This document shows positions 1-14,565 of a stretch of 22,484 nucleotides of DNA, piece after piece (position 1 is the stretch's first letter; each line of letters begins with the position of its first letter). The stretch spans positions 1-22,484 of the forward strand of contig JAFSYO010000063.1 of the NCBI GenBank assembly GCA_017449925.1. Reading direction: 5' to 3'. The translations under genes and the position numbers were made by a program. The DNA is from Stomatobaculum sp. (lineage in GTDB: Bacteria > Bacillota_A > Clostridia > Lachnospirales > Lachnospiraceae). The notes below the pieces were generated by a model. That model saw only the letters and a program-made list of their open reading frames with translations, was not told where the DNA came from and did no database searches.

Positions 1-162
1 CAGGAAGCCGCCCACCACAGGAGCCGGAATACAGTACTTCGTGAGGAAGCTCACTTTCTTCCGGATCCAGAAGCCGATCAGGAGCAGGATCGCGGCCAGC
101 GCCGTCGTCATGACCATCGTACAGCTGATATTCAATGTACCTTCAACAGTTTCAAAAGACAT
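1..162 (-). CDS. gltS: Sodium/glutamate symporter, N-terminal part (cut by window edge)
   Basis: Only the first 54 codons lie in the window; the rest runs off the left edge. The reading frame opens with ATG at 162 behind a GGGGG ribosome site about six bases upstream. The peptide has a hydrophobic segment at about residues 16-33, then a basic loop, then the sequence SFLTKYCIPAPVVGGFL. This matches the start of the GltS family, where a first membrane helix is followed by a KK/Y-IP-PVxGG(L/F) stretch. GltS proteins import glutamate with sodium through the inner membrane. The gene sits directly downstream of a large SARP-type regulator and has its own promoter with a SARP-like direct repeat, so regulation by that neighbour is likely. 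The family call is good from this fragment; the exact substrate cannot be verified here. Confidence 0.8.
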   Translation of the reverse strand, partial: MSFETVEGTLNISCTMVMTTALAAILLLIGFWIRKKVSFLTKYCIPAPVVGGFL

Positions 163-205
163 AAGTTACCCCCTTTTCTGACAGTATTCTTACTGCTGTC
201 CTGTC

Positions 206-238
206 ATTATACCTGACAGGCGTCCAAGAATCGTCCAA
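206..238 (-). promoter_or_regulatory. gltS promoter with SARP-type heptamer direct repeats
   Basis: Reading the minus strand, TTGGACG occurs at 238-232 and again at 227-221, separated by ATTC, giving an 11-bp pitch. Nine bases further on is a perfect TATAAT box (211-206), followed after about 43 bases by the gltS start codon. There is no good -35 hexamer at normal spacing, which fits an activator-dependent promoter. SARP regulators such as ActII-ORF4 and DnrI are known to bind heptamers repeated at 11 bp close upstream of the -10 box. A dyad, CTGTCA and TGACAG (201-206 and 214-219), also overlaps the -10 box and could be a second operator. Confidence 0.65.
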
Positions 239-281: not shown

Positions 282-3200
282 TTACTCCGTCATGAAGTGT
301 TTCGTCTTGCTGTACAGCTCGTTTGCCCGGAAGCTTGTTTTTGCAGATATTCCCTGACGCAGCGCGCGGCGGATCAGCTCTGCTTCGAAAACATCCGGGA
401 TCCCGGATAAATGCCGCAGTCCCTTTCTGGCATACTGTTCCGCGGTTTCTTTCAGCAGACCCGTACCTGTGCCTTCTGTTCTTCCTTCCAGTTCCGCCTT
501 CTGCCTCATGGTCATGGAGACGAAGGAAAGGATCCCCTGTTCCAGGGGAGATCCCATCTTTCCGCAGCATTCTTCCGCCTCGGAAAGATACTTTTCCGCA
601 GCTGCGCTGTCGCAGTCCTCCGCAGCGTAATAAGCCAGATAGGCCGCCGCCGCTCCTCTTCCGGGAAGCTCTCCGTTCTTTCCCGATATATCCAGAGCTG
701 TCCGGAACAGCTCCCGGGCTTTTCTGTGATCCTCCAGGGCAAAAACCGTTCTTCCGTAGTGGACATAGACCCAGGTAAGACCGGGCCAGTTTTCACCGTC
801 CGCCAGTGAAAGCGCCTTTTTAAAACAGGCTGATGCCTCCGCGTATCCGTTTTTGTGGCGGTAGACTCTGGCCAGGTCCGCGTAAGCGGCTGCCAGCTGC
901 AGCTTCACTTCCGTGGTCTGCGGCTGTTTTTCCAGAAGATCCACTGCCTCCAGATGATAATAGGCGGCCTTGTCGTAGGACTGCCTGAGGCAGAAGCAGC
1001 AGCCTCTGAGCCTCTGAAAGGCGGCGGTCCGGAGAGGATCTCCGATGTCTGTCAGGCTCCGCATTCCCGCTGAGACGTAATGCTCCGCCAGGTCCGGATT
1101 CTGCCGGTACACCGCCAGCTGGGAAAGAAGATAGCAGATCCGGACGCGAAGGAAACGTCTCCCCCTGTCCTCCAGTCCGCTGATCCTCCCCAGGAGCTCA
1201 TTTCCCTGCTTCATATCTCCCCGGGTCGCCGCCTCGGTTCCCGCAGCCTCCAGCACCAGACACTCTGTATGGACCGCAGCTGCTTCTTCCATCCCCTGGC
1301 CCCGCAGCTCATCGAGCTGGCGGAACAACGCTTCTGCCTCCTGTCTTATCTCTTCCCGGTCTGGAATCTTCAGTTCTCCTCCTCCGTACCAGGAAAAGGG
1401 CACAAATGCCCGGGAGCATTCCAGAGACAATGCCGCCGCGCGGTAGGGAAGGGCCTTGTCAGGCATCTTCGCCAGTTCAAAGCACTGCGCAGTCTCCCGC
1501 AGATCCCTGCTGTCCCCCGGATTACCTTCTTTTTCCAGGATCGAAGCCATGTGCGCGTAAGCGGTCCTTTTTTCTCTGGCCGGCGTCATCTCATACACAA
1601 GCTCCCGGATCCGGCTGTGACGGAAGCGGTAAAAATCGTCTTTTCCGCCATGGTGCTCCTCGATCAGACCTTTTCTCCGGAGGACATCCACGCCTCCGGT
1701 CAGCATGCGGTCGTCCCCTCCGGAAAGCTTCAGCAGCACACTTCCGGAAAGCTGCTCGGGAAACAGCGAAAGAAGCTTCGCGATCCGAAGAGCGTTCTCA
1801 GGCAGGGAAGAGATTTCTTCCCCCAGGAGCTTTCCCGGTTCTGACAGTTCTTCCGGCGTCCGGTCCTTCGATTTCCTGATCAGCTCCTCCAGAAGGACCA
1901 GGTTACCGCCGCTCTCCCGGAGGAAGCGCTCCGAATATTCCGCGGCTTTTTCGTCTCCCAGTTCCCTGGCGATCAGAAATCTGATCTCTTCTCCGTTCAA
2001 AGGCTGAAGTTTCAGCCGCAGCAGCACGCCTTTCCGTTCCATTCCTTCCAGAATCTTCCGGATGCCGAATTTATAGTCATCCCGGCAGCTCAGCACTGCC
2101 ATGATCCCCTTCAGTTCCGCGGAATAAAGCAGATGTTCCAGCAATGTCCCGCCTGCGGTATCCAGCCACTGGATATTCTCCAGGATCAGCAGGATCCGGC
2201 GCTTCCGGAGAAGTTCCCGCAGCAGGATCTGAAGGGTCTCCTTGCGGAAAGCTCCGCCGCTCTCTTCCATCTCCCCAAGCTCCGCCTGGGTACGGATGGG
2301 CAGCGCCAGTCCTTCATCCGCCGCCAGATCCCACAGCTGCCTCGTCAGCCTTTTCCACGGCAGAAGGGGGAACTGTTCCTCAGACTGAAGGCAGTCGGTC
2401 CTGACCACGTACATTCCGCTGAGATCCGTCCAGCCCAGGAAGCTCTGGATCAGCTCGCTTTTGCCGCTGCCGGCTTCACCTGTCAGGAGACAGGCGCTGC
2501 GGTCAAGGTCGCTCCGCGCCAGCGCTTCCCTCGCCGCCACCAGGATCTCCAGGATCCGCTCCCGTCCCGCCGGGAGAACCGGACGCTCCGGATCAGCGCC
2601 GCTATTCGACGCCTCGTTCCAGCGGTTCATGATGCTGTAGTAAAGCGCCGTCGTGCTCTCCTGGGGCAGAATACCCAGTTCTTCCTGGAGAAGCTTTTTC
2701 AGCTGCTGGAACACCCGGGCCGCCTTCTCATACTCTCCTCCGGCACTGCAGCAGCGCATCAGAAGACAGGTCATCCCTTCATGGTACGGATCTTCACGCA
2801 GGTATTCCCGGCACAGCCGAGCCGCTTCCCTGGGGTCCTCCCGCTCTGCTTCTTCCGCCCGCCGGATCAGTTCTCCCAGGAAGATCTCCCGGGTCTTTTC
2901 CCGCACGGACCGGACCCATTCTTCGAAGGCGAAGGCGCGTTTCAGGGAAAAACCCTGCAGGAATTCTCCTGCGTTTTCCGGGATGATCCGCTCCCGGACC
3001 AGATGGTCGTAGTCACAGTCGGTCTCCCAGGACTCATTTACCACCAGCAGGGACTTCCGGGGAGAAAGAAGGAACTCTCCCCCCAGGACCTTCTTGAGGC
3101 TGTAGAGAGTATTCCTCAGGTTCTTAAGTCCTGCCGCCTCGTCACAGTCCTCCCAGAGCAGCGATATCAGCTCCTGCCTGCTGGCAGTCTTCCGCACCAG

Positions 3201-3302
3201 CATGTAGTAAAGCAGCGCCTCCGCCCGTTTCACCGGGAAAGATACCTGCTGCCCGTCCAGCAGAATCAAAGGCGTCTGGAGAAGCAAGGCTTTTAACATC
3301 AT
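282..3302 (-). CDS. SARP/BTAD-family transcriptional regulator with AAA ATPase and TPR repeats
   Basis: A 1006-residue regulator. Residues 1-90 resemble an OmpR-like winged helix (AEALLYYMLVRKTASRQELISLLW, then the NLRNTLYSLKKVL helix). Residues 95-225 form a helical bacterial transcriptional activator domain ending in the typical YEKAARVFQQLKKLLQEELG stretch. A P-loop GEAGSGKS follows at 275-282, with a Walker B-like ILLILENIQWLD at 370-381. The C-terminal half is helical and TPR-like. This is the AfsR-type layout: DNA binding, BTAD, signalling ATPase, ligand- or protein-binding repeats. The start at 3302 is chosen because AGGAGG lies seven bases upstream; a longer frame to 3494 would run into the divergent ftcD gene. 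An ATG directly follows at 3299, so the first residue could be either. It precedes gltS on the same strand and is divergent from ftcD, making both candidate targets. The signal sensed is unknown. Confidence 0.85.
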   Translation of the reverse strand: MMLKALLLQTPLILLDGQQVSFPVKRAEALLYYMLVRKTASRQELISLLWEDCDEAAGLKNLRNTLYSLKKVLGGEFLLSPRKSLLVVNESWETDCDYDHLVRERIIPENAGEFLQGFSLKRAFAFEEWVRSVREKTREIFLGELIRRAEEAEREDPREAARLCREYLREDPYHEGMTCLLMRCCSAGGEYEKAARVFQQLKKLLQEELGILPQESTTALYYSIMNRWNEASNSGADPERPVLPAGRERILEILVAAREALARSDLDRSACLLTGEAGSGKSELIQSFLGWTDLSGMYVVRTDCLQSEEQFPLLPWKRLTRQLWDLAADEGLALPIRTQAELGEMEESGGAFRKETLQILLRELLRKRRILLILENIQWLDTAGGTLLEHLLYSAELKGIMAVLSCRDDYKFGIRKILEGMERKGVLLRLKLQPLNGEEIRFLIARELGDEKAAEYSERFLRESGGNLVLLEELIRKSKDRTPEELSEPGKLLGEEISSLPENALRIAKLLSLFPEQLSGSVLLKLSGGDDRMLTGGVDVLRRKGLIEEHHGGKDDFYRFRHSRIRELVYEMTPAREKRTAYAHMASILEKEGNPGDSRDLRETAQCFELAKMPDKALPYRAAALSLECSRAFVPFSWYGGGELKIPDREEIRQEAEALFRQLDELRGQGMEEAAAVHTECLVLEAAGTEAATRGDMKQGNELLGRISGLEDRGRRFLRVRICYLLSQLAVYRQNPDLAEHYVSAGMRSLTDIGDPLRTAAFQRLRGCCFCLRQSYDKAAYYHLEAVDLLEKQPQTTEVKLQLAAAYADLARVYRHKNGYAEASACFKKALSLADGENWPGLTWVYVHYGRTVFALEDHRKARELFRTALDISGKNGELPGRGAAAAYLAYYAAEDCDSAAAEKYLSEAEECCGKMGSPLEQGILSFVSMTMRQKAELEGRTEGTGTGLLKETAEQYARKGLRHLSGIPDVFEAELIRRALRQGISAKTSFRANELYSKTKHFMTE

Positions 3303-3435: not shown

Positions 3436-4356
3436 ATGCAGAAACAGATGCTGATCCAGTCCATCCCCAATTTCAGCGAAGGCCGGGATCTCAAAAAGGT
3501 GGAGCAGATCGTCGACGCATTCCGCGGCAGGCCAGGTCTGAAGCTCCTTGACTACTCGACCGACCCGGACCACAACCGTTCTGTCGCCGTTGTCATCGGC
3601 GGACCGGAAGCAATGAAGGAAGCCATGGTGGACGCCATCGGACGTTCCATCGACTTGATAGATATGAACATACACGAAGGAAAGCATCCCCGCATCGGCT
3701 GCGTGGATGTCATTCCCTTTATTCCTGTCCGCGGAGCCACGCTCCAGGACGCGGACGCTCTGGCAAAGGAAGTGGCACAGCGCGCGGCGGAGCAGTTCAG
3801 CTTTCCATTTTATCTTTACGAAGCCTCTGCCTCCGCGCCTCACCGGGTCTCCCTTTCCGATATCCGGGCAGGACAGTACGAAGGACTTGCCGGGAAAATG
3901 AAGGATCCTCTCTGGATCCCGGACTACGGTCCCGCTTCCCCGCATCCCACTGGAGGCGCGGCCGCCATCGGCGCCAGGATGCCTATCATTTACTATAACG
4001 TAAATCTCGACACCTCCAGCCTGGAGACCGCCCGCAGCATTGCCCGAAAGATCCGCGGGTCCGACGGCGGATACCGCTTTGTCAAGGCCATGGGCATCGT
4101 TCCTGAAGGCAGGAACAGCGCCCAGGTCTCCGTCAACCTGACGGATTTCAGCAGGACCTCTCTCTACACCGTTTTCGAAACGGTAAAGATGGAGGCCGCC
4201 CGCTACGGCGTCCGCGCAGTATCCAGCGAAGTCGTGGGCTATCTCCCGCTTCAGGCCCTGGTGGACAGCGCCGAGTATTATCTGCAGCTGGAAGACTTCA
4301 GTCCGGACCAGATCCTGGAATACGACATCTGGAACAAAGAAGAAGAGGAAAAATAG
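3436..4356 (+). CDS. ftcD: Glutamate formimidoyltransferase (monofunctional)
   Basis: A 306-residue protein covering only the formiminotransferase N and C subdomains, without the cyclodeaminase domain of the ~540-residue vertebrate enzyme. It moves the formimino group from N-formimino-L-glutamate to tetrahydrofolate and releases glutamate, the last step of one histidine-degradation route, in the cytoplasm. Visible signatures are SIPNFSEGRD at 9-18 and the HEGKHPRIGCVDVIPFIP stretch at 80-97, which contains the His expected to act in catalysis. ATG at 3436 is chosen because AAGGAAGG lies upstream; a longer frame back to 3373 overlaps the promoter. The gene stands alone between its own promoter and terminator. 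No hut genes and no cyclodeaminase (fchA) are in the window, so the pathway partner must lie elsewhere. Confidence 0.93.
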   Translation: MQKQMLIQSIPNFSEGRDLKKVEQIVDAFRGRPGLKLLDYSTDPDHNRSVAVVIGGPEAMKEAMVDAIGRSIDLIDMNIHEGKHPRIGCVDVIPFIPVRGATLQDADALAKEVAQRAAEQFSFPFYLYEASASAPHRVSLSDIRAGQYEGLAGKMKDPLWIPDYGPASPHPTGGAAAIGARMPIIYYNVNLDTSSLETARSIARKIRGSDGGYRFVKAMGIVPEGRNSAQVSVNLTDFSRTSLYTVFETVKMEAARYGVRAVSSEVVGYLPLQALVDSAEYYLQLEDFSPDQILEYDIWNKEEEEK

Positions 4357-5308: not shown

Positions 5309-6619
5309 TTATTTAAAATTTTCCTCCGCGTACTTGGAAAGCTCCGCCCGGAAATCGGGATGCGCCACAGAGATCATGGCCTCCGCCCGCTCCCTGAGGG
5401 ACAGCCCCGAAAGCTTCACCACACCGTACTCCGTGGCCACGTACTGGATCATGGTGCGGGGCGCGGAGACAGTGGAGCCGCCGGGAATAAAGGGGACGAT
5501 GTTGGACTTCCGCATGCCGTCCTTCGTCACGCGGGAGGAATTCATGCAGACAAAGCCCTTTCCGCCCAGGGAGCGGTAGGCGCCCTCCAGGAAATCCATC
5601 TGGCCGCCGATGCCGGACAGCTGGCGTGTTCCCGCGGATTCGCCGTTCTCCTGACCCATGAGGTCCAGCTGCACGCCGCCGTTGATGCTGATGACGTTCT
5701 TCATGGACGCGATGCGGTAGGGATCGTGGACGTAGTCCAGGTCGCCAGGGTGGAACAGCTCCGGCTCCGCGTCCAGCCAGTCGTATAGTTCCTGGGAACC
5801 CATGGCCAGATTCCAGGTGGAGAGGCCGGTGTCAAATTCTTTCCGCGCATTGGTGAGCTTTCCTGCCTTGTACAGCGCCAGAAAGGCGTCGCTGATGGTG
5901 CCGGTGTGGCAGCCGATGTCCTTCAGGTCCGACTCCGCCACCATGTTCGCCACGGTGAAAGGAACGCCGCCCACGCCCAGGGAAAGCACTGCCCCGTCCG
6001 GGATCTCCGCCACCACCAGCTCCGCGATGCGGCGGTCCGTCTCCGACGCAGCCTTGTAACTCCGCTCCGGCATCGGCTCGTGGAAGCCCTCCACCACATA
6101 GTCCGCCTCGCTCAGGTGGACACGGTGGGAGCCCTCCACGCCCTGCAGACGCGGATAATGTTCATTGATCTCAAAAATGACGGTGCGGGCATTTTCAAAG
6201 ATGACCCTCCAGGTGTAGTTGGAGATGCCGAGACCGCAGTAGCCCTCATCGTCCGGTCTCGAAACCGGTACAAAAGCCACATCCACCCGGATGTGATTCC
6301 GGTACAGCACCGGCAGAGAGCGGAGCATCACCGGCATGAAACGCACCAGCCCCTTCGACTGCATCTTCCGCTCATAATCCCCGATATGCCAGCTGTAATA
6401 AGAAAAGGATTCCTGCTCCGGATCCGCTTCGATCACCTCGATCCGCGGCCGGATCACCAGGCCGCCACGGATCTTCACATCCTTTACTTCTCCCTTGCGG
6501 GCGGCCAGCGCTTTGTCCAGAAGCTCCGGATAACCTGCGCCGAAACCATAGTCCACCCAGTCTCCGTCCCGCACTGCCTTGACTGCCTCTTCCGGTGAAA
6601 CGATCCTGTACTGCTTCAC
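5309..6619 (-). CDS. Acetyl-CoA hydrolase/transferase family protein, butyryl-CoA:acetate CoA-transferase-like, probable altered active site
   Basis: A 436-residue protein of the But/4-hydroxybutyrate CoA-transferase family, close to the usual ~440-450 length. Family marks are GDWVDYGFGAGYPEL at 19-33, the glycine-rich SLGVGGVPFTVA at 213-224, GSQELYDWL, and SGIGGQMDF in the C-terminal half. Family members swap CoA between acyl groups through a glutamyl-CoA intermediate. The catalytic Glu, from memory of the family, sits in an H-T-E or Y-T-E motif. Here the aligned stretch reads CHTGTISDAF (237-246), with Gly at 240, so classical activity is doubtful. The start codon is GTG at 6619 with a GGGGG ribosome site ten bases upstream. 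It is divergent from the 2-hydroxyacid dehydrogenase-Etf operon, and a link to lactate or acyl-CoA metabolism is inferred from that. Confidence 0.82.
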   Translation of the reverse strand: MKQYRIVSPEEAVKAVRDGDWVDYGFGAGYPELLDKALAARKGEVKDVKIRGGLVIRPRIEVIEADPEQESFSYYSWHIGDYERKMQSKGLVRFMPVMLRSLPVLYRNHIRVDVAFVPVSRPDDEGYCGLGISNYTWRVIFENARTVIFEINEHYPRLQGVEGSHRVHLSEADYVVEGFHEPMPERSYKAASETDRRIAELVVAEIPDGAVLSLGVGGVPFTVANMVAESDLKDIGCHTGTISDAFLALYKAGKLTNARKEFDTGLSTWNLAMGSQELYDWLDAEPELFHPGDLDYVHDPYRIASMKNVISINGGVQLDLMGQENGESAGTRQLSGIGGQMDFLEGAYRSLGGKGFVCMNSSRVTKDGMRKSNIVPFIPGGSTVSAPRTMIQYVATEYGVVKLSGLSLRERAEAMISVAHPDFRAELSKYAEENFK

Positions 6620-6705
6620 TTTCTTTTTCCCCCTTCTTGATACGGTGCACCCGCCGAAAGCCGATTCCGCGCTGTTTATTGTTTATATATAACCGTGATA
6701 AAATC

Positions 6706-6734
6706 AGTATACTCCATTCCGCGGCCTTCGTGAA
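6706..6734 (-). promoter_or_regulatory. Candidate promoter of the CoA-transferase gene
   Basis: On the minus strand TTCACG (6734-6729) and TATACT (6711-6706) are 17 bases apart. The -10 box is strong and the -35 moderate. The predicted leader to the GTG at 6619 is about 80 bases and passes through a very AT-rich segment (TTATATATAAAC). Confidence 0.45.
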
Positions 6735-6760
6735 CTTTTTCCATGTCCTCATTTAGCCGG

Positions 6761-6817
6761 CACCCTACGCTCGGGTCGCTTCGCGCCTTTACCATTTCGG
6801 AATTATTACTCATTCTG
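6761..6817. repeat. Second, shorter copy of the intergenic element flanking the CoA-transferase gene
   Basis: The segment starting CACCCTACGCTCGGG resembles CACCCCAGACTCGGG at 5165. The following TTCGCGCCTT..CCA..TCGGAA..TAT pattern resembles the segment at 5215-5254. Both copies are in the same orientation, one on each side of the 5309-6619 gene. The right arm of the 20-bp inverted repeat is missing here. Similarity is clear by eye but diverged. Confidence 0.5.
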
Positions 6818-6830
6818 TACATTATGACGC

Positions 6831-6859
6831 TTGACTATGGACAATCTATCGTGTATTTT
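6831..6859 (+). promoter_or_regulatory. Probable promoter of the dehydrogenase-etfBA operon
   Basis: TTGACT (6831-6836) and TATTTT (6854-6859) with a 17-base spacer. The predicted start near 6866 leaves a leader of about 107 bases before the first gene. The remaining gene-free bases between 6620 and 6972 hold the CoA-transferase promoter, the repeat element and the leader hairpin listed separately. Confidence 0.55.
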
Positions 6860-6892
6860 TACTCTTAATGTTTTATAAACATTCAGTATCGG

Positions 6893-6922
6893 GGATCCGG
6901 ACCTCAGATCGGCCTGAGATCC
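6893..6922 (+). promoter_or_regulatory. Hairpin in the leader of the dehydrogenase operon
   Basis: GGAT (6893-6896) pairs with ATCC (6919-6922) and CTCAG pairs with CTGAG inside it, with a one-sided CCGGAC bulge. It lies about 27 bases after the predicted transcription start and 50 bases before the start codon. There is no T run, so it is not a terminator. It could be an mRNA-stabilising or protein-binding structure; I recognise no riboswitch. Confidence 0.35.
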
Positions 6923-6972
6923 AAGTGCTGAACAAATACAGATTGATATGACACAAAGGAGAAGCAGCACGA

Positions 6973-8565
6973 ATGGACGACAGTTTTCGTGATACATACC
7001 GGCAGTACCTGAAGGATGAATCCCGTACTACCGGATACGCAGACTCCATCTCCTTCCCGAAGTCGGAGGAGGAAGTCTCAGAAGACCTGAAGAACTACTG
7101 CGGTAAGGGCATTCCCGTCACTGTTCAGGGCGCCCGGACCGGACTGACCGGCGGATGCGTCCCCTACGGCGGCCATATTCTCAACACCTCCGGACTGGAC
7201 CGCTTCCTCGGCATGGAAATCGCGAAGGACGGCAGCTTTCTGATCCGCGTGCAGCCGGCTATCCCGCTTTCCAGGCTGCGGTCGCTTCTGGCAGAAAAGA
7301 GCCTCCCGACAGAAGGCTGGGACGAGGACTCCCTGACGGTATATGAACATTTCAAGATGGCGCCGGAGCAGTTCTTCCCGCCGGATCCCACGGAAAGCTC
7401 CGCTTTTCTGGGCGGTATCGCCGCCTGCAACGCTTCCGGCTCCCGGAGCTATCTCTACGGTCCCATGCGGCCCTATGTCCAGGGACTCAAGCTGGCGCTC
7501 ACTGACGGGGACGTGCTTTCCCTGCGCCGCGGAGAATGCTTTGCAGAGGGGCGCATCCTCCGGGTCCGCACTGAGAGCGGCCGGGTGATCGAAGCCAAGC
7601 TTCCTTCTTACCAGATGCCCTCCTGCAAGAATGCCTCCGGATATTTCGCCGCGGACGATATGGACGCCATCGACCTGATCATCGGCTCCGACGGTACCCT
7701 CGGCGTTCTGACAGAGCTGACTCTGAAGCTTATTCCGAAGCCGAAGGTCATCTGGGCGGTCAGTGTCTTTTTCAAGGACGAGCCCATGGCGATCCGCTTT
7801 ACGGAAACTCTGCGCCCGGAAATAAAGAACGCCGCAGCCATTGAATATTTTGACGGAAACGCCCTGCAGATCCTCCGGAACCAGAAGGCGAACAACGCCG
7901 CCTTCTCTTCCCTGCCGGTGATCCCCGAAGACGCGGGATGCTGCATCTATGTGGAGCTTCACTGCGGTTCGGAAGAAGAAGCCATGGAGACTCTCTACAG
8001 GATCGGCGACGTCCTCACGAAATGCGGCAGCAGCGAGGCAGATACCTGGGTCGCCCGGGACGAGAAAGATAAGAACCTGCTGATCTTCTTCCGCCATGCG
8101 GTCCCGGAGAGCACCAACATGCTGATCGACGTCCGCAGGCAGTCGGATCCCACCATCACCAAGCTCGGCTCCGATATGTCCGTACCGGACGGAAAGCTTT
8201 CGGACATCGTCAAGTTTTACCGGCAGACCCTTGCGGAAGAAGGGTTCGACTCCGCCACCTGGGGACACATCGGAAGCAACCACCTGCACGTGAACATCAT
8301 CCCCGCCAATCACGAGGAGCATGTCAGAGGAAAGGCGCTCTTCAGCCGCTGGGCAGAGAGAATCACTTCCCTCGGCGGCGCGGTCTCCGCGGAGCACGGC
8401 GTGGGTAAGATCAAGCGTGACTTCCTCCGTATCATGTACGGAAAAGAAGGCCTCCTGGAAATGGCGGCGGTGAAGGCCGCCTTCGACCCGTCCCTGATGC
8501 TGGCCCGGGGAAATCTGTTCCCAGAAGAGATCCTGGATGAGATCAGAAAGGAGGCGCGCGCATGA
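6973..8565 (+). CDS. FAD-linked D-2-hydroxyacid dehydrogenase (probable D-lactate dehydrogenase, Etf-coupled)
   Basis: A 530-residue flavoprotein of the GlcD/LctD type. The N-terminal PCMH FAD-binding domain shows VQGARTGLTGGCVP at 51-64 and PPDPTESSAFLGGIAACNASG at 136-156. The C-terminal FAD-oxidase domain carries the metal and substrate His cluster HIGSNHLHVN (432-441) and EHGVG (474-478). These enzymes oxidise D-2-hydroxyacids to 2-oxoacids. The stop overlaps the etfB start by ATGA, so the electron acceptor is almost certainly the Etf encoded next, as in the Acetobacterium woodii lactate dehydrogenase-Etf complex that drives lactate oxidation by NAD+ with reduced ferredoxin. At 530 residues it is longer than typical LctD proteins (~460-470). 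D-lactate is the leading substrate; 2-hydroxyglutarate or another 2-hydroxyacid is possible. An AGGAG site precedes the ATG. Confidence 0.85.
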   Translation: MDDSFRDTYRQYLKDESRTTGYADSISFPKSEEEVSEDLKNYCGKGIPVTVQGARTGLTGGCVPYGGHILNTSGLDRFLGMEIAKDGSFLIRVQPAIPLSRLRSLLAEKSLPTEGWDEDSLTVYEHFKMAPEQFFPPDPTESSAFLGGIAACNASGSRSYLYGPMRPYVQGLKLALTDGDVLSLRRGECFAEGRILRVRTESGRVIEAKLPSYQMPSCKNASGYFAADDMDAIDLIIGSDGTLGVLTELTLKLIPKPKVIWAVSVFFKDEPMAIRFTETLRPEIKNAAAIEYFDGNALQILRNQKANNAAFSSLPVIPEDAGCCIYVELHCGSEEEAMETLYRIGDVLTKCGSSEADTWVARDEKDKNLLIFFRHAVPESTNMLIDVRRQSDPTITKLGSDMSVPDGKLSDIVKFYRQTLAEEGFDSATWGHIGSNHLHVNIIPANHEEHVRGKALFSRWAERITSLGGAVSAEHGVGKIKRDFLRIMYGKEGLLEMAAVKAAFDPSLMLARGNLFPEEILDEIRKEARA

Positions 8566-9437
8566 ACGGCAGTATGAATACCGGAAAAAAGACCTTCAAC
8601 ATGGTCGTCTGCGTAAAACAGGTCCCCGCCGGCGCCCAGGCAAAGCTGGACCCTGTGACGAAGACCCTGGTGCGCAGCGCAGGCTCCTCGATCCTGAATC
8701 CCTATGACGCTTTCGCGGTGGAAGCCGCCCTGCAGATCAGGGACGGGTTCGCCGGACAGACGGCTGCCCAGGACGGACAGACCGTCAGCCCCTTCTGCAC
8801 AGTCACTGCCCTCAGCATGGGCGTTCCCTCGGTGGAAAAAATGCTGAAGGACCTCATTGCCCGCGGCGTGGACGAAGGCGTCCTGCTGACGGACCGCGCC
8901 TTTGCCGGCGCTGACACCATCGCCACCTCCCGCTCCCTCGCCCTGGGAGTCCGGGAGATCGGATACCGGAGCGGAAGCGCTTCGCTGATCATCTGCGGCC
9001 ACATGGCTGTGGACGGCGATACCGCCCAGATCGGACCGGAGCTGGCGGAAACTCTGAAGCTTCCCCACGTCTCCAACGTGCTGAAGATCGTGGAAGTGGA
9101 CCCGGAAGGGACTTACCTCATCGTCGAGTGCATCGCGGCGGAAGGAAGGCAGACCCTGAAGGTGCAGCTTCCCGCCCTGATCACTGTCTCCAAGGATATC
9201 AACGTCTTAAGGCTCCCCTCCATCAGGGGCATCCGGAAGGCGGAACAGCATCAGGTCCGGGTCCTCGGCGCAGCAGAACTCAACGCGGACGTGGCCCTTC
9301 TGGGGAAAATGGGCTCGGCGACCCAGGTGGTCCGGACCTTTACGCCGGATTTTAAGACCACCGCGGAACGCATCACGGGCACCCCGAAGGAAGCAGCCGT
9401 GAAAATCAGAGACATCATCGGGAGAATAATAGGATGA
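8562..9437 (+). CDS. etfB: Electron transfer flavoprotein beta subunit, bifurcating type
   Basis: A 291-residue Etf beta subunit. It has VCVKQVP at 16-22, NPYDAFAVEAAL at 46-57, the LLTDRAFAGADTIATSRSLA stretch at 108-127, and CGHMAVDGDTAQIGPELAE at 145-163. The DGDTAQxGPExAE loop binds the second FAD in bifurcating Etf proteins instead of AMP. It would take electrons from the dehydrogenase and pass them to NAD+ or ferredoxin through EtfA. The start ATG at 8562 overlaps the upstream stop and is preceded by AAAGGAGG. Its own stop overlaps the etfA start by ATGA, so the three proteins are translationally coupled and probably made in equal amounts. A stretch at about 62-78 (AGQTAAQDGQTVSP) looks like a small insertion relative to shorter family members. 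Confidence 0.93.
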   Translation: MNGSMNTGKKTFNMVVCVKQVPAGAQAKLDPVTKTLVRSAGSSILNPYDAFAVEAALQIRDGFAGQTAAQDGQTVSPFCTVTALSMGVPSVEKMLKDLIARGVDEGVLLTDRAFAGADTIATSRSLALGVREIGYRSGSASLIICGHMAVDGDTAQIGPELAETLKLPHVSNVLKIVEVDPEGTYLIVECIAAEGRQTLKVQLPALITVSKDINVLRLPSIRGIRKAEQHQVRVLGAAELNADVALLGKMGSATQVVRTFTPDFKTTAERITGTPKEAAVKIRDIIGRIIG

Positions 9438-10471
9438 ACTTCAATCAAAGGAAAAGCGAGATCTGGGTATACGCGGAACAGCATGCCGGCGTCATTCATC
9501 CGGTGGCTTTTGAGCTGCTGGGCACTGCCAGAAAGCTGGCGGATGAGAACGGCTTCCGTGTCACCGCGGCAGTGATCGGCGACCTCCGGGCCAGCAGCGC
9601 GGAAGAACTGATCGCCGCAGGGGCGGACCATGTTTTTCTGGTCACTCATGTAACTCTCAGGCTGCCCATGGAACTCCCCTATGAGAAGATCCTCTACAGC
9701 CTTGTATCCCGGGAACAGCCGGATATCCTTCTCTTCGGCGCCACTCCCTTCGGCCGCTCCCTGGCGCCCCGTCTGGCCGCCCACCTTGGGACCGGCCTCA
9801 CTGCGGACTGCACTTCCCTCTCCATCGATCCGGAGAGCGGATTCTTAAAGCAGGTGCGGCCCGCTTTCGGCGGCAGCCTGATGGCGGAGATCATATGTCC
9901 GGTCATGCGCCCGCAGATGGCGACGGTGCGGCCCGGTGTCTTTACGCGCCCCGTTCCTGATTTTACCCGGGGCGGCAGCATCGAACGTATCTGGCAGCCC
10001 ATAGAAGAGCCGCGAGTCAAGGTGCTCCGCACGGAAGCCCGCCGTGACGGCCGCTCCATCGCAGGCGCCAAGCGCCTCGTCATCGCCGGCCGCGGTATCG
10101 GCCTCAAAAAGAACCTTGCTCTGGTGGAGGAGCTTGCCGCGCTTCTGGATGCTGACTGGGGCTGCTCCCGTCCGCTGGTGGAAAACGGCTGGTGCGACAG
10201 CTTCCGTCAGGTCGGCCAGACCGGCTGCTCCGTCGCCCCGGATCTTCTGGTCAGTATCGGGGTCTCCGGCGCCGTGCAGCACACCGCCGGCATCACCGGC
10301 GCGAAGCAGGTCATCGCGGTGAACAAGGACCCCTCCGCGCAGATCTTCGCTTCCGCTGACTACGCTGTGGAAGGCGACTGCGTGCAGTTCATGAAATCCC
10401 TCATTTCCGAACTCCGGGCGAACCCGCCGATGCGGACCATCTGGGGAAGCTCCGAAGAGTACAACGGTTAA
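9434..10471 (+). CDS. etfA: Electron transfer flavoprotein alpha subunit
   Basis: A 345-residue Etf alpha subunit. The N-terminal domain shows GLTADCT at 121-127 and RPQMATVRPGVF at 159-170. The C-terminal FAD domain shows GRGIG at 219-223, CSRPLVENGW at 244-253, QVGQTG at 259-264, IGVSGAVQH at 275-283 and a final ADYAVEGD. The protein starts directly with the Etf fold (MNFNQRKSEIWVYAEQ), so it lacks the N-terminal [4Fe-4S] ferredoxin-like extension reported for LctC of Acetobacterium woodii. The residue after QTG is Cys265 where Lys is usual. It completes the dehydrogenase-EtfB-EtfA operon and is followed by a terminator. Partner to EtfB; whether the complex truly bifurcates cannot be decided from sequence. 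Confidence 0.93.
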   Translation: MNFNQRKSEIWVYAEQHAGVIHPVAFELLGTARKLADENGFRVTAAVIGDLRASSAEELIAAGADHVFLVTHVTLRLPMELPYEKILYSLVSREQPDILLFGATPFGRSLAPRLAAHLGTGLTADCTSLSIDPESGFLKQVRPAFGGSLMAEIICPVMRPQMATVRPGVFTRPVPDFTRGGSIERIWQPIEEPRVKVLRTEARRDGRSIAGAKRLVIAGRGIGLKKNLALVEELAALLDADWGCSRPLVENGWCDSFRQVGQTGCSVAPDLLVSIGVSGAVQHTAGITGAKQVIAVNKDPSAQIFASADYAVEGDCVQFMKSLISELRANPPMRTIWGSSEEYNG

Positions 10472-11913: not shown

Positions 11914-12774
11914 TCAGCAGTTCCCTGTATACACGTACTTCAGGTTTTCCCGGGCGATCTCCGCCAGGCGGTAGATCTTCGGCACCGGCGTCGCAGGCCG
12001 GTCCGTCATATGGAAGCGCGGGAAAAAGCGGGAGATGTGCAGAGGAATGTGGTTCCCGATGACCTTTCCGGAGCCGTCCTTCAGCCCCGCGATCCAGCCG
12101 GAGAGCTCCCGCATCTCCTCCTCCGAATCATTTTCCCCGGGGATGATGAGTGTCGTGAGCTCCACGTGGCAGTTCTTCACCGCCTCCCGGATAAAATCCT
12201 GCACCATTGCAAGGCTGCCGTGCAGCACATCCCGATAGTACCGCTCTGTTATTCCCTTCAGGTCGATGTTCATGGCGTCGATATACGGCGAAAGCTCCGA
12301 CAGAACGGTAAGCTCCGCCGTCCCGTTCGTCACCATCGCGTTCAGCATGCCCGCCTCATGCACCAGCTTCGCCGTGTCCCGCACGAACTCGTAGCCGATC
12401 AGAGGCTCGTTGTAAGTATAAGCGATGCCGATGTTCCCGTGGGGCCGGTACTTCAGCGCCAGGGCGCAGAGATCCTCCGGCATCAGCAGCTCAGCAGACG
12501 CTTCGCGGAACTCTTTTATCTCCGGCCCCCAGGATATCTCATGGTTCTGGCAGAAAGGGCACCTCAGGTTGCAGCCGTAGCTTCCCACAGAAAGGATGCG
12601 CTTCCCCGGATGAAAGCGGTTCAGCGGCTTCTTTTCGATGGGGTCCAGGGCGATGGACGTGATCTTCCCGTAATTCGCGGCGAAGATCTTCCCGTCCTCC
12701 GCGGCCCGGCCGCCGCAGAACCCGGTCTCCCCGTCCTTTATCTCACAGTGCCGGAAGCATACTTCACATCTCAT
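11914..12774 (-). CDS. amrS: AmmeMemoRadiSam system radical SAM enzyme
   Basis: A 286-residue radical SAM protein. The [4Fe-4S]-SAM motif is GCNLRCPFCQN with C68, C72 and C75. An extra N-terminal cysteine set (C3, C6, C10, C20: CEVCFRHC and GFC) is typical of this family and of relatives of pyruvate formate-lyase activase, and could bind another metal centre. Later segments (NEPLIGYEF, VTNGT, DLKG, PLHISRFFPRFHM) fit the AmrS family. The family is defined by its association with MEMO/LigB-like and AMMECR1 proteins, both present in the next gene upstream. The reaction and substrate are unknown. An AGGAGG site sits a few bases before the ATG. It lies 115 bases downstream of the fusion gene and 44 bases upstream of the zinc-ribbon gene. 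Confidence 0.9.
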   Translation of the reverse strand: MRCEVCFRHCEIKDGETGFCGGRAAEDGKIFAANYGKITSIALDPIEKKPLNRFHPGKRILSVGSYGCNLRCPFCQNHEISWGPEIKEFREASAELLMPEDLCALALKYRPHGNIGIAYTYNEPLIGYEFVRDTAKLVHEAGMLNAMVTNGTAELTVLSELSPYIDAMNIDLKGITERYYRDVLHGSLAMVQDFIREAVKNCHVELTTLIIPGENDSEEEMRELSGWIAGLKDGSGKVIGNHIPLHISRFFPRFHMTDRPATPVPKIYRLAEIARENLKYVYTGNC

Positions 12775-12805
12775 GTCCTTCCTCCTGTTTTTTACTGGTG
12801 ATTCA

Positions 12806-12846
12806 CGGGCGGCTTATTTCCCGGGCGGCTTATTTCCCGGGCGGCC
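12806..12846. repeat. 16-bp tandem repeat between the LigB-AMMECR1 and amrS genes
   Basis: The unit CGGGCGGCTTATTTCC occurs at 12806-12821 and 12822-12837, and its first eight bases occur again from 12838. Further GGCGGC-rich partial copies continue to the stop codon of the fusion gene at 12890. The repeat lies just 3' of that gene. Confidence 0.8.
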
Positions 12847-12889
12847 TGGAAGCCAGGCGGCTCTCCGGCGGCGGCTCACCGGCGGCAGA

Positions 12890-14353
12890 TCAACGGTGAC
12901 GGATCACTTCGAAGCGCTCCAGGGAGACCTTCTCCCCGGGACGGATGCCGGCTTTCTGCTTCGCGATGGAGATCTGCTGCTCCACGGTGTCCACGCCGTC
13001 CAGGTCCGGCAGCAGAAGTCCTCTCCTGCCGCCCTTTGTGACGATGACGCCGTAGCGCTTCACGTCAAGCTGCGACGGGGAATCGATGGGTTCCGGATCT
13101 CCCAGCACGTCCACGTTGATCTCCAGCCAGGGAAGCTCCTCCGGCTTGATGGCATCGAACCGCGGGTCTTGGGTGGAGGCGCTGATCGCGTTATGGACGA
13201 TCTCCTCCGCCAGACTGTCTCTGGTGGGAAGGATAGTACCGATGCATCCCCTGAGTTTTCCGTGCTTGTGGATGGAGACGAAAGCGCCAGCGCGGGTATC
13301 CCTCAGCTCCTTCCACGCCGCTTCCCCGGAAGCGCCTGCGGCGGTTCCTTCGTTTGCAGTTCCCTCTTCCGCGGCCTTCAGTCCTGCCGCATCTGAATAC
13401 TCATTCCGCCGCAGCACCTTCCGGTGCAGCACATAGCTCTCCACAGAAGCCCTGGCCAGGCGGACGAAAGCATCCTCCCCGTCCCGCTGCGCCTTCAGCG
13501 CAGCCTCCTGCTCCTCCAGGTAGCGGTCCAGGAAATGCCGGGAGCTGTCCTCCACTCCCGGATAGAAGGTGCAGATGCCGTAGCCCACGCCGGTCACATC
13601 CTCATGGGACAGCTGTGTTGCCTTCACACTTCTTCCGTCCAGCGCCCCCGCCATGATCACAAAGGATCGATGGCCGCACTCCGCCGCTTTTTCACAGAAG
13701 TTCTCATCAAACCCGAACATCTCCCCGAAGGCGGCCCGGGAACAGACGTCCATAATCCGGGCGTCGTACTGAGGCCCTTCCGGCGAGTAGCCATAGGGGC
13801 CGTAACTCTGAAGCTTGTGGGACAGGTCACCGCTGGCTACCAGGACCACTTTGCGCCCCGTCCGCTCCGCCGCCTCCCGGATCATCATCCCCAGGCGGTA
13901 GTGATCGGACAGCGGCAGGCCGGAGAGTCCGATCCGCACCAGCTTATAATCCGTATACTTTTGACGGATGAACCAGAGCGGCACCATGGTCCCGTGATCC
14001 AGGTCCTTGTCCCGCTCGCCAAGGGTCCCGGCGGGGAACCCCGCGTCTTTCGTGATGCGGCACAGCTCTTTTACCAGTTCCGTGTCATAGTTCTCCGTAA
14101 AACGCACCTGCCCCGCAGCAAAATTCGCGAAGGAACCGGAAGCGCGGCTGCCCGGTGAAATGTGGAAATAGTCCGAATAAAGAATGGAATGCGGACTGGT
14201 GATCACGATGGTCTCCGGCTTCAGCGCGGCGATCTCATCCGCCACCTGCTGATAGGCCTTCGTGGTGCTTTCGACCTGTTTTTCACTTCCCCGCCCCACC
14301 TGCGGCACGATCATCGGCGGGTGCGGTACCATAAACGCGGCAAGTATCGGCAT
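12890..14353 (-). CDS. LigB/MEMO-type domain fused to AMMECR1 (AmmeMemoRadiSam A+B fusion)
   Basis: A 487-residue two-domain protein. Residues 1-266 match the class III extradiol dioxygenase/MEMO fold: [18 protein letters not shown] at 5-22, SPHS at 53-56, [12 protein letters not shown] at 117-128 and ASGDLSHKL at 173-181. His11, His55, His120 and His179 are possible metal or active-site residues. After a linker rich in Ala, Gly and Glu (about 321-346) comes an AMMECR1 domain with the family hallmark LRGCIG at 367-372. In many organisms the two parts are separate proteins; here one gene supplies both, with the radical SAM partner just downstream. The molecular function is unknown in bacteria. 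The ATG at 14353 is chosen for AGGAGGAG upstream; a frame extension to 14431 has no ribosome site. A class III dioxygenase acting alone is an alternative reading of the first domain. Confidence 0.87.
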
Positions 14354-14565
14354 AGGCTCTCCTCCTGACAGATTCTTACTCTTAATGATTCTCTCTTTAC
14401 AACTCAGACGGTTTCCCGCCGGGTCAATCACTTTTTACTGCAGAAAGCAGGCATCTGAACAGTACCTTCTTTCAGTATATTTTATTTTTTTGGCCAAGAA
14501 AAGCAGTGCCCGCATCAGGCAGACCGGCTGTTGAAGAGTGCCGCGGATCGACGGGAGCATCTTCC
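14354..14565. other. Gene-free spacer upstream of the LigB-AMMECR1 gene
   Basis: This spacer holds the upstream region of the fusion gene. On the minus strand a TATACT box at 14479-14474 sits behind an A-rich tract after TTGGCC, but no -35 hexamer is well placed, so a promoter here is only tentative. No coding sequence is supported. An inverted pair CTGTTGAA (14528-14535) and TTCAACAG (14578-14585) reaches into the neighbouring repeat. Confidence 0.3.

Follow-up and report, generated by a model that had tools for sequence, protein, structure and literature searches.

What drives transcription of a gltS-type symporter gene that lies beside a gene for a SARP regulator in a clostridial genome, and which metabolism would such a pair serve? 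The question is raised by positions 1 to 22,484 of contig JAFSYO010000063.1 from Stomatobaculum sp. (assembly GCA_017449925.1), a stretch of 22,484 nucleotides that we call the window, in which the following element lies in front of gltS:

201..238, minus strand: operator-promoter element upstream of gltS, adjoining the SARP gene
238-232, minus strand: upstream copy of the heptamer TTGGACG, exact match
227-221, minus strand: downstream copy of the heptamer TTGGACG, exact match, at 11-bp pitch to the first
211-206, minus strand: perfect -10 box TATAAT, 9 bp (220-212) past the second heptamer

Read on the minus strand, the region runs CCCCCTTT TTGGACG ATTC TTGGACG CCTGTCAGG TATAAT, with spacers of 4 and 9 bp. 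We consider it likely that 201-238 is the operator-promoter of the neighbouring SARP-fold activator, the regulon of which would be the catabolism of histidine-derived compounds, including an operon for import of formiminoglutamate (FIGLU).

The coordinates agree with the initial annotation, which had described two perfect heptamers at 11-bp pitch, nine bases from TATAAT, and no proper -35 box. These two are the only exact copies of TTGGACG in the window, and among 2000 dinucleotide-shuffled versions of the window an exact pair came up twice (about 0.001 per window). At 16-18 bp from the gltS -10 box, the best -35 match reached 2 of 6 positions, and an ordinary sigma-70 promoter for gltS was ruled out since none of this type was found between 100 and 400 of the window. 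A riboswitch or T-box leader of gltS was likewise dropped, Rfam giving no match at gathering score across the whole window. The single terminator match around the regulator gene is on the plus strand, none being found on the gene's own strand.

Conservation of the heptamers and of their pitch in orthologous regions had been named beforehand as the refutation test. By comparing 11 gltS promoters, the window included, we found the same layout in all of them: a heptamer pair at 11-bp pitch, followed by TATAAT or TATACT exactly 9 bp on. The first heptamer is TTRGACG in 9 of the 11, with the one-base variants TTGGGCG in locus L006 and TTATACG in L118 (genome G589), and the second is TTNGAYG in 10, with TCAGATG in G589; the best -35 match is 1-2 of 6 in all 11. 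Because L005, L119 and L120 are near-copies, the independent number of promoters is lower than 11. The nearest named relative of the window regulator (83% identity) comes from uncultured Lachnospiraceae bacterium RUG12573 (L001). There, CCCCCTTTTTGGACGATTCTTGGACGC is identical to the window while the stretch upstream diverged and a CTGTCA/TGACAG dyad over the -10 box (plus strand, 201-206 and 214-219) is lost. This dyad does exist in the window, as had been noted, but we rejected the second regulator proposed to bind it since the dyad is not conserved in L001. Thus, the conserved layout together with the lost dyad means that the main test was passed and that the idea of a second regulator fails; the link between a SARP-type operator geometry and the adjoining SARP gene is supported. 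The gltS 5' leader past the -10 box (window 166-205, minus strand) is also near-identical in the window and L001, and a small hairpin is possible in it (CAGTA AGAA TACTG, paired by eye).

The regulator gene itself lies immediately upstream:

282..3302, minus strand: SARP regulator gene, 1006 aa, with BTAD, AAA_16 and TPR (TPR_12) matches

Its start codon at 3302 was our choice from a GGAGG and the alignment. The domain matches bear out the earlier description of a SARP/BTAD-AAA-TPR protein. The layout consists of a winged helix and BTAD (residues 1-235), a STAND/NOD ATPase and TPR repeats, and the STAND-TPR protein 6mfv matches with an E value of 1.1e-14. In a fold search with a model of the complete protein, TPR matches took up all the results, so we modelled the N-terminal part by itself; its predicted fold resembles AfsR and EmbR, AfsR being closest. 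The protein therefore has what marks a SARP, an N-terminal winged-helix DNA-binding domain followed by BTAD, and the ATPase and TPR parts behind this domain place it among the large, AfsR-like SARP-NOD-TPR proteins. The promoter shows the matching signature: direct repeats 11 bp apart (11 or 22 in SARP targets), a 3' repeat 9 bp from the -10 box (about 8) and a poor or absent -35. A secondary-metabolite cluster, which is typical of SARPs without defining them, is not indicated: the neighbours identified for the family comprise hut, ftcD, fchA, fhs and transporter genes, a result obtained without a cluster-finding program. With a geometry and a fold that both match the SARPs, the regulator does not represent a new kind.

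Work on AfsR describes SARP dimers as occupying 11-bp repeats that lie between a poor -35 and the -10, with the 3' repeat 8 bp from the latter, and as docking sigma region 4 (PMC10936776). AfsR and the afs box of Streptomyces coelicolor (PMC10936776, PMC10972967) are the system most like ours, sharing the SARP-NOD-TPR architecture, the closest fold and direct repeats of 11-bp pitch that stand between a poor -35 and the -10. The two differ in the heptamer (TTNGACG against the repeat CGTT(T/C)ATCG given for AfsR), in the gap to the -10 (9 bp here, 8 as stated for SARPs in PMC10936776) and in setting, since the window regulator has catabolic neighbours rather than antibiotic genes and a Firmicute host. 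The solved chains of EmbR from Mycobacterium tuberculosis (PDB 2fez, 2ff4) have 373-379 residues, compared with 1006 including STAND ATPase and TPR here. Unlike MalT-type STAND activators, the regulator carries a DNA-binding domain of SARP type at its N-terminus, and its TPR part is matched by Rap and other TPR proteins as well as or better than by MalT-type proteins.

By analogy with AfsR, a pair of regulator subunits would sit at the -35 position, on TTNGACG repeats that are a single DNA turn apart, and could hold the sigma factor over the good -10 box; activation would thus proceed through sigma contact. As in MalT, the ATPase-TPR part may sense a metabolite that permits binding, for which FIGLU is our candidate signal.

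What the regulator controls is suggested by its relatives. Among the best 120 of 135 matches, 43 full-length relatives at 39-83% identity accompany the 100% self match, and past one shorter match at 39% the identity drops to about 25%. A scan of GTDB species genomes for the family yielded 76 loci. Across the Firmicutes, the regulator adjoins some or all of hutH, hutU, hutI, ftcD, fchA, fhs and hutD, and it stands beside hut-type genes in Clostridium, Sporomusa, Acidaminococcus, Veillonella, Companilactobacillus, Enterococcus and other genera; one representative of each recurrent neighbour was checked against NCBIfam or Pfam and the rest were assigned by similarity. Together, the link between operator and regulator and the hut neighbours across the Firmicutes suggest a SARP regulon that serves the catabolism of histidine and FIGLU and not antibiotic production. 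The regulators of the gltS group and that of L002 form one clade with a support of 100, in a tree of 88 rows made by a quick method, with many long branches flagged, which drops regulators with a frame under 600 residues or a match starting after residue 40 and leaves out L008, L020, L024 and L041.

Two family SARPs occur together in G005, G589, G554 and L009. In G005 and G589, the gltS operon and the hut genes each have one of the two SARPs, with a separate operator at each locus. Family SARPs also stand beside a three-subunit molybdenum hydroxylase (L009:13221-18648, L018, L036, L049, L052, L060, L063, L045 and L030); most of these loci also have a HutH-like lyase and a BCCT transporter, and some have the operator. 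This combination of lyase and transporter may serve to import and cleave ergothioneine or some other histidine betaine.

We then turn to the operator as a search pattern. A gltS-site pattern built from seven sites (window, L001, L003-L007) was run at up to 3 mismatches on 12 whole genomes holding a close relative of the regulator. It gave 12 matches in 10 genomes, one or two in each, and the reversed pattern gave none; the two genomes without a match, G008 and G009, are both in many contigs. Ten of the matches are gltS promoters and the other two lie directly before hutH in G005 and G589, at hut loci with a second, more distant SARP gene. As six of the seven sites behind the pattern lie in these genomes, those six matches are not independent, which leaves as independent the gltS sites of G007, G589, G1250 and G1369 and the two hutH sites, G004, G1250 and G1369 having near-copies of one regulator. 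On about 1.65 Mb made up of the family loci and further SARP loci, the pattern matched 22 times at up to 2 mismatches and 40 times at up to 3, whereas a control in which the repeats were reversed but the -10 was unchanged matched once at up to 4. Eleven of the 12 best non-gltS matches precede hutH, hutU, fhs or ftcD; the remaining one precedes a 414-residue gene adjoining the regulator, an amidohydrolase by eye. Similar sites at L034:17997 and L054:9848 (both minus strand) stand before genes of 414-427 residues that look by eye like M20-type amidohydrolases and are possibly further regulon members. Operator-like sites in five Veillonella loci (L062, L065, L066, L070, L072, near 5820-5910, minus strand) point away from the neighbouring SDF transporter gene, and no clear gene was found behind them.

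A broader pattern at up to 2 mismatches matched 6 of 13 genomes with a family SARP and none of 39 without (Fisher p of about 8e-5 by our own arithmetic), "without" meaning no match at E 1e-60 or better and the 39 being drawn from scanned genomes lacking one. This pattern was chosen after the loci had been scanned with the gltS-site pattern, and among the scanned loci were short ones taken from the 13 SARP-bearing genomes; of the six matching genomes, G289, G028, G145 and G333 matched at sites already seen (bar one weak match in G145), and G1247 and G1366 lie outside. With it, an operator at up to 4 mismatches stands before a catabolic or transport gene in 43 of the 76 loci, and 17 of its 92 matches in loci have no assigned gene behind them. 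Heptamer pairs were counted at 33 pitches and peak at 11, where there are 94 of them, the remaining 32 pitches giving 15-54 each; the reversed heptamer has 38 pairs at pitch 11 and no peak. The gap from pair to -10 is 9 in 50 of 126 pairs, followed by 10 with 8 pairs. Motif frequencies among matches are shaped by the search pattern and were not used as evidence.

The genes behind the gltS promoter bear on the substrate. In the window, two are concerned:

1..162, minus strand, running off the window: start of a gltS-type sodium/glutamate symporter gene, start codon at 162 (Glt_symporter PF03616, E 5.1e-9)
3436..4356, plus strand: ftcD, glutamate formimidoyltransferase, divergent from the regulator gene (TIGR02024, 371.5 bits against a cut-off of 221.25; start by eye)

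The symporter type assigned earlier to the downstream gene is supported by the Glt_symporter match; the window fragment, of 54 residues only, scores 28.7 bits against the TIGR00210 cut-off of 310.75, which the orthologue in L005 exceeds with 346 bits. No solved structure related to GltS was found by sequence search. The order operator-gltS-ftcD-fchA-hutD is kept in 9 of 10 gltS-bearing relatives (L001, L003-L007, L118-L120); in the tenth, L107, which spans 3 kb, gltS was the sole gene found. Next after hutD comes fhs in 7 of the 9 operons, none being found in the available stretches of L001 and L004, and an ECF component (c17) lies behind fhs in L005, L006, L119 and L120. Thus, the proposal that a clostridial SARP controls glutamate uptake stands as regards the SARP-operator link at gltS; its target was too narrow, given ftcD, fchA and hutD after gltS and the hut genes of the wider family.

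Among the 12 genomes, hutU, hutH and above-cut-off hutI each occur in two, always G005 and G589, which also have a hut-linked SARP; the three are absent from the other 10, for which completeness is not stated. G1250 and G1369, whose loci lie on 2.3- and 2.5-Mb contigs, are among those lacking them. Judging from gene content, most bacteria of the gltS clade seem equipped to process FIGLU but not to form it through the known histidine pathway, so that GltS may import it; as the only transporter gene identified in all nine operons, gltS is the natural candidate. The gltS-ftcD-fchA-hutD operon, mostly with fhs, would then import FIGLU or a close analogue, which could be converted to glutamate, ammonia and formate with ATP gained through formate-tetrahydrofolate ligase. 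Elsewhere in the window, not far from ftcD, the genes at 5309-10471 may make up a fermentation module: they encode a CoA-transferase, a protein resembling FAD-linked 2-hydroxyacid dehydrogenases and what by eye looks like a pair of Etf proteins. At 11914-14431 (minus strand), a radical-SAM-like protein lies beside a Memo/AMMECR1-like fusion (by eye), resembling the AmmeMemoRadiSam system.

Several observations weigh against the proposed operator and its regulon for histidine-derived compounds. No operator at up to 4 mismatches lies in the ftcD-regulator gap of the window, and 33 of the 76 loci, some of them short, lack one before a catabolic or transport gene, although 12 of these have a gltS-site-pattern match somewhere. 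All four Streptococcus suis loci have hut genes and no operator. At 3 mismatches the broader pattern becomes noisy, matching 8 of 13 SARP-bearing and 5 of 39 SARP-free genomes, with 10 matches for the reversed control against 18 for the true pattern. Weak hutI-like matches below the cut-off, taken as other amidohydrolases, occur in all 12 genomes, and since genome completeness is not stated, the absence of hut genes is no proof. Finally, the symporter may simply carry glutamate, since the same genomes hold other gltS-like genes (3 in G001, 4 in G008, 3 strong and 1 weak in G1250; none found in G009). Autoregulation through the operator is not seen in the window, weak 4-mismatch matches before the regulator being confined to L073, L075 and L083.

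It is thus possible, if rather doubtful, that operator and regulator act as described while the operon serves glutamate, GltS importing it for fermentation and FtcD-FchA-Fhs doing one-carbon recycling only. The score of the L005 orthologue above the gltS equivalog cut-off fits this, as do the repeated use of the family within genomes and the nearby CoA-transferase and FAD-oxidase/Etf genes, which could serve amino-acid fermentation. However, FtcD requires a formimino donor, two ftcD copies together with hutD and fchA remain with gltS, and G001 and G1250 each have a single operator match, which lies at the gltS of the operon, with none at their other gltS-like genes. That another regulator, e.g. 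of OmpR/PhoB type, binds the heptamers while the SARP gene is a mere neighbour appears quite improbable: a review describes PhoP as binding to the site of AfsR at afsS, so that such overlap is known, but operator and SARP co-occur across families and genomes, and G005 and G589, with two SARPs, have the operator at both loci. A chance repeat before an ordinary promoter can practically be dismissed. Its perfect -10 box could work with an activator-independent holoenzyme, but conservation in all 11 promoters already refutes it, in line with the 2 exact pairs in 2000 shuffles and the absence of reversed-control matches in 12 genomes.

HutP is a regulator of histidine genes. HutC and HisR also control histidine metabolism genes, the role we propose for the window regulator (for HisR, see PMC9413887); HutC belongs to the GntR family, in contrast to the SARP-type domains here. 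Among the literature matches listed, subscription papers and regulon databases being outside the scope, none tied a SARP or BTAD regulator to histidine or FIGLU catabolism; nor did those matches show a catabolic SARP branch in Firmicutes, the operator described here or a FIGLU circuit. With about even confidence, we propose jointly that Firmicutes hold a widespread non-antibiotic SARP-STAND-TPR branch with the operator TTNGACG-4-TTNGACG-9-TATAAT, which senses a histidine-derived metabolite and was duplicated into three circuits: one for histidine, one for the BCCT/molybdenum-hydroxylase module and one for FIGLU scavenged through a GltS-family transporter by bacteria unable to form it from histidine.

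SARPs are known above all as activators of antibiotic clusters, and the same geometry is found here in an apparent catabolic regulon across many Firmicute families. This regulon gives a testable class of ligands for the AfsR-type ATPase-TPR sensor, and the operator allows its members to be found from sequence alone. It also provides a candidate regulator for the hut genes of many Firmicutes, together with a candidate FIGLU transporter and a candidate FIGLU-scavenging lifestyle in gut bacteria.
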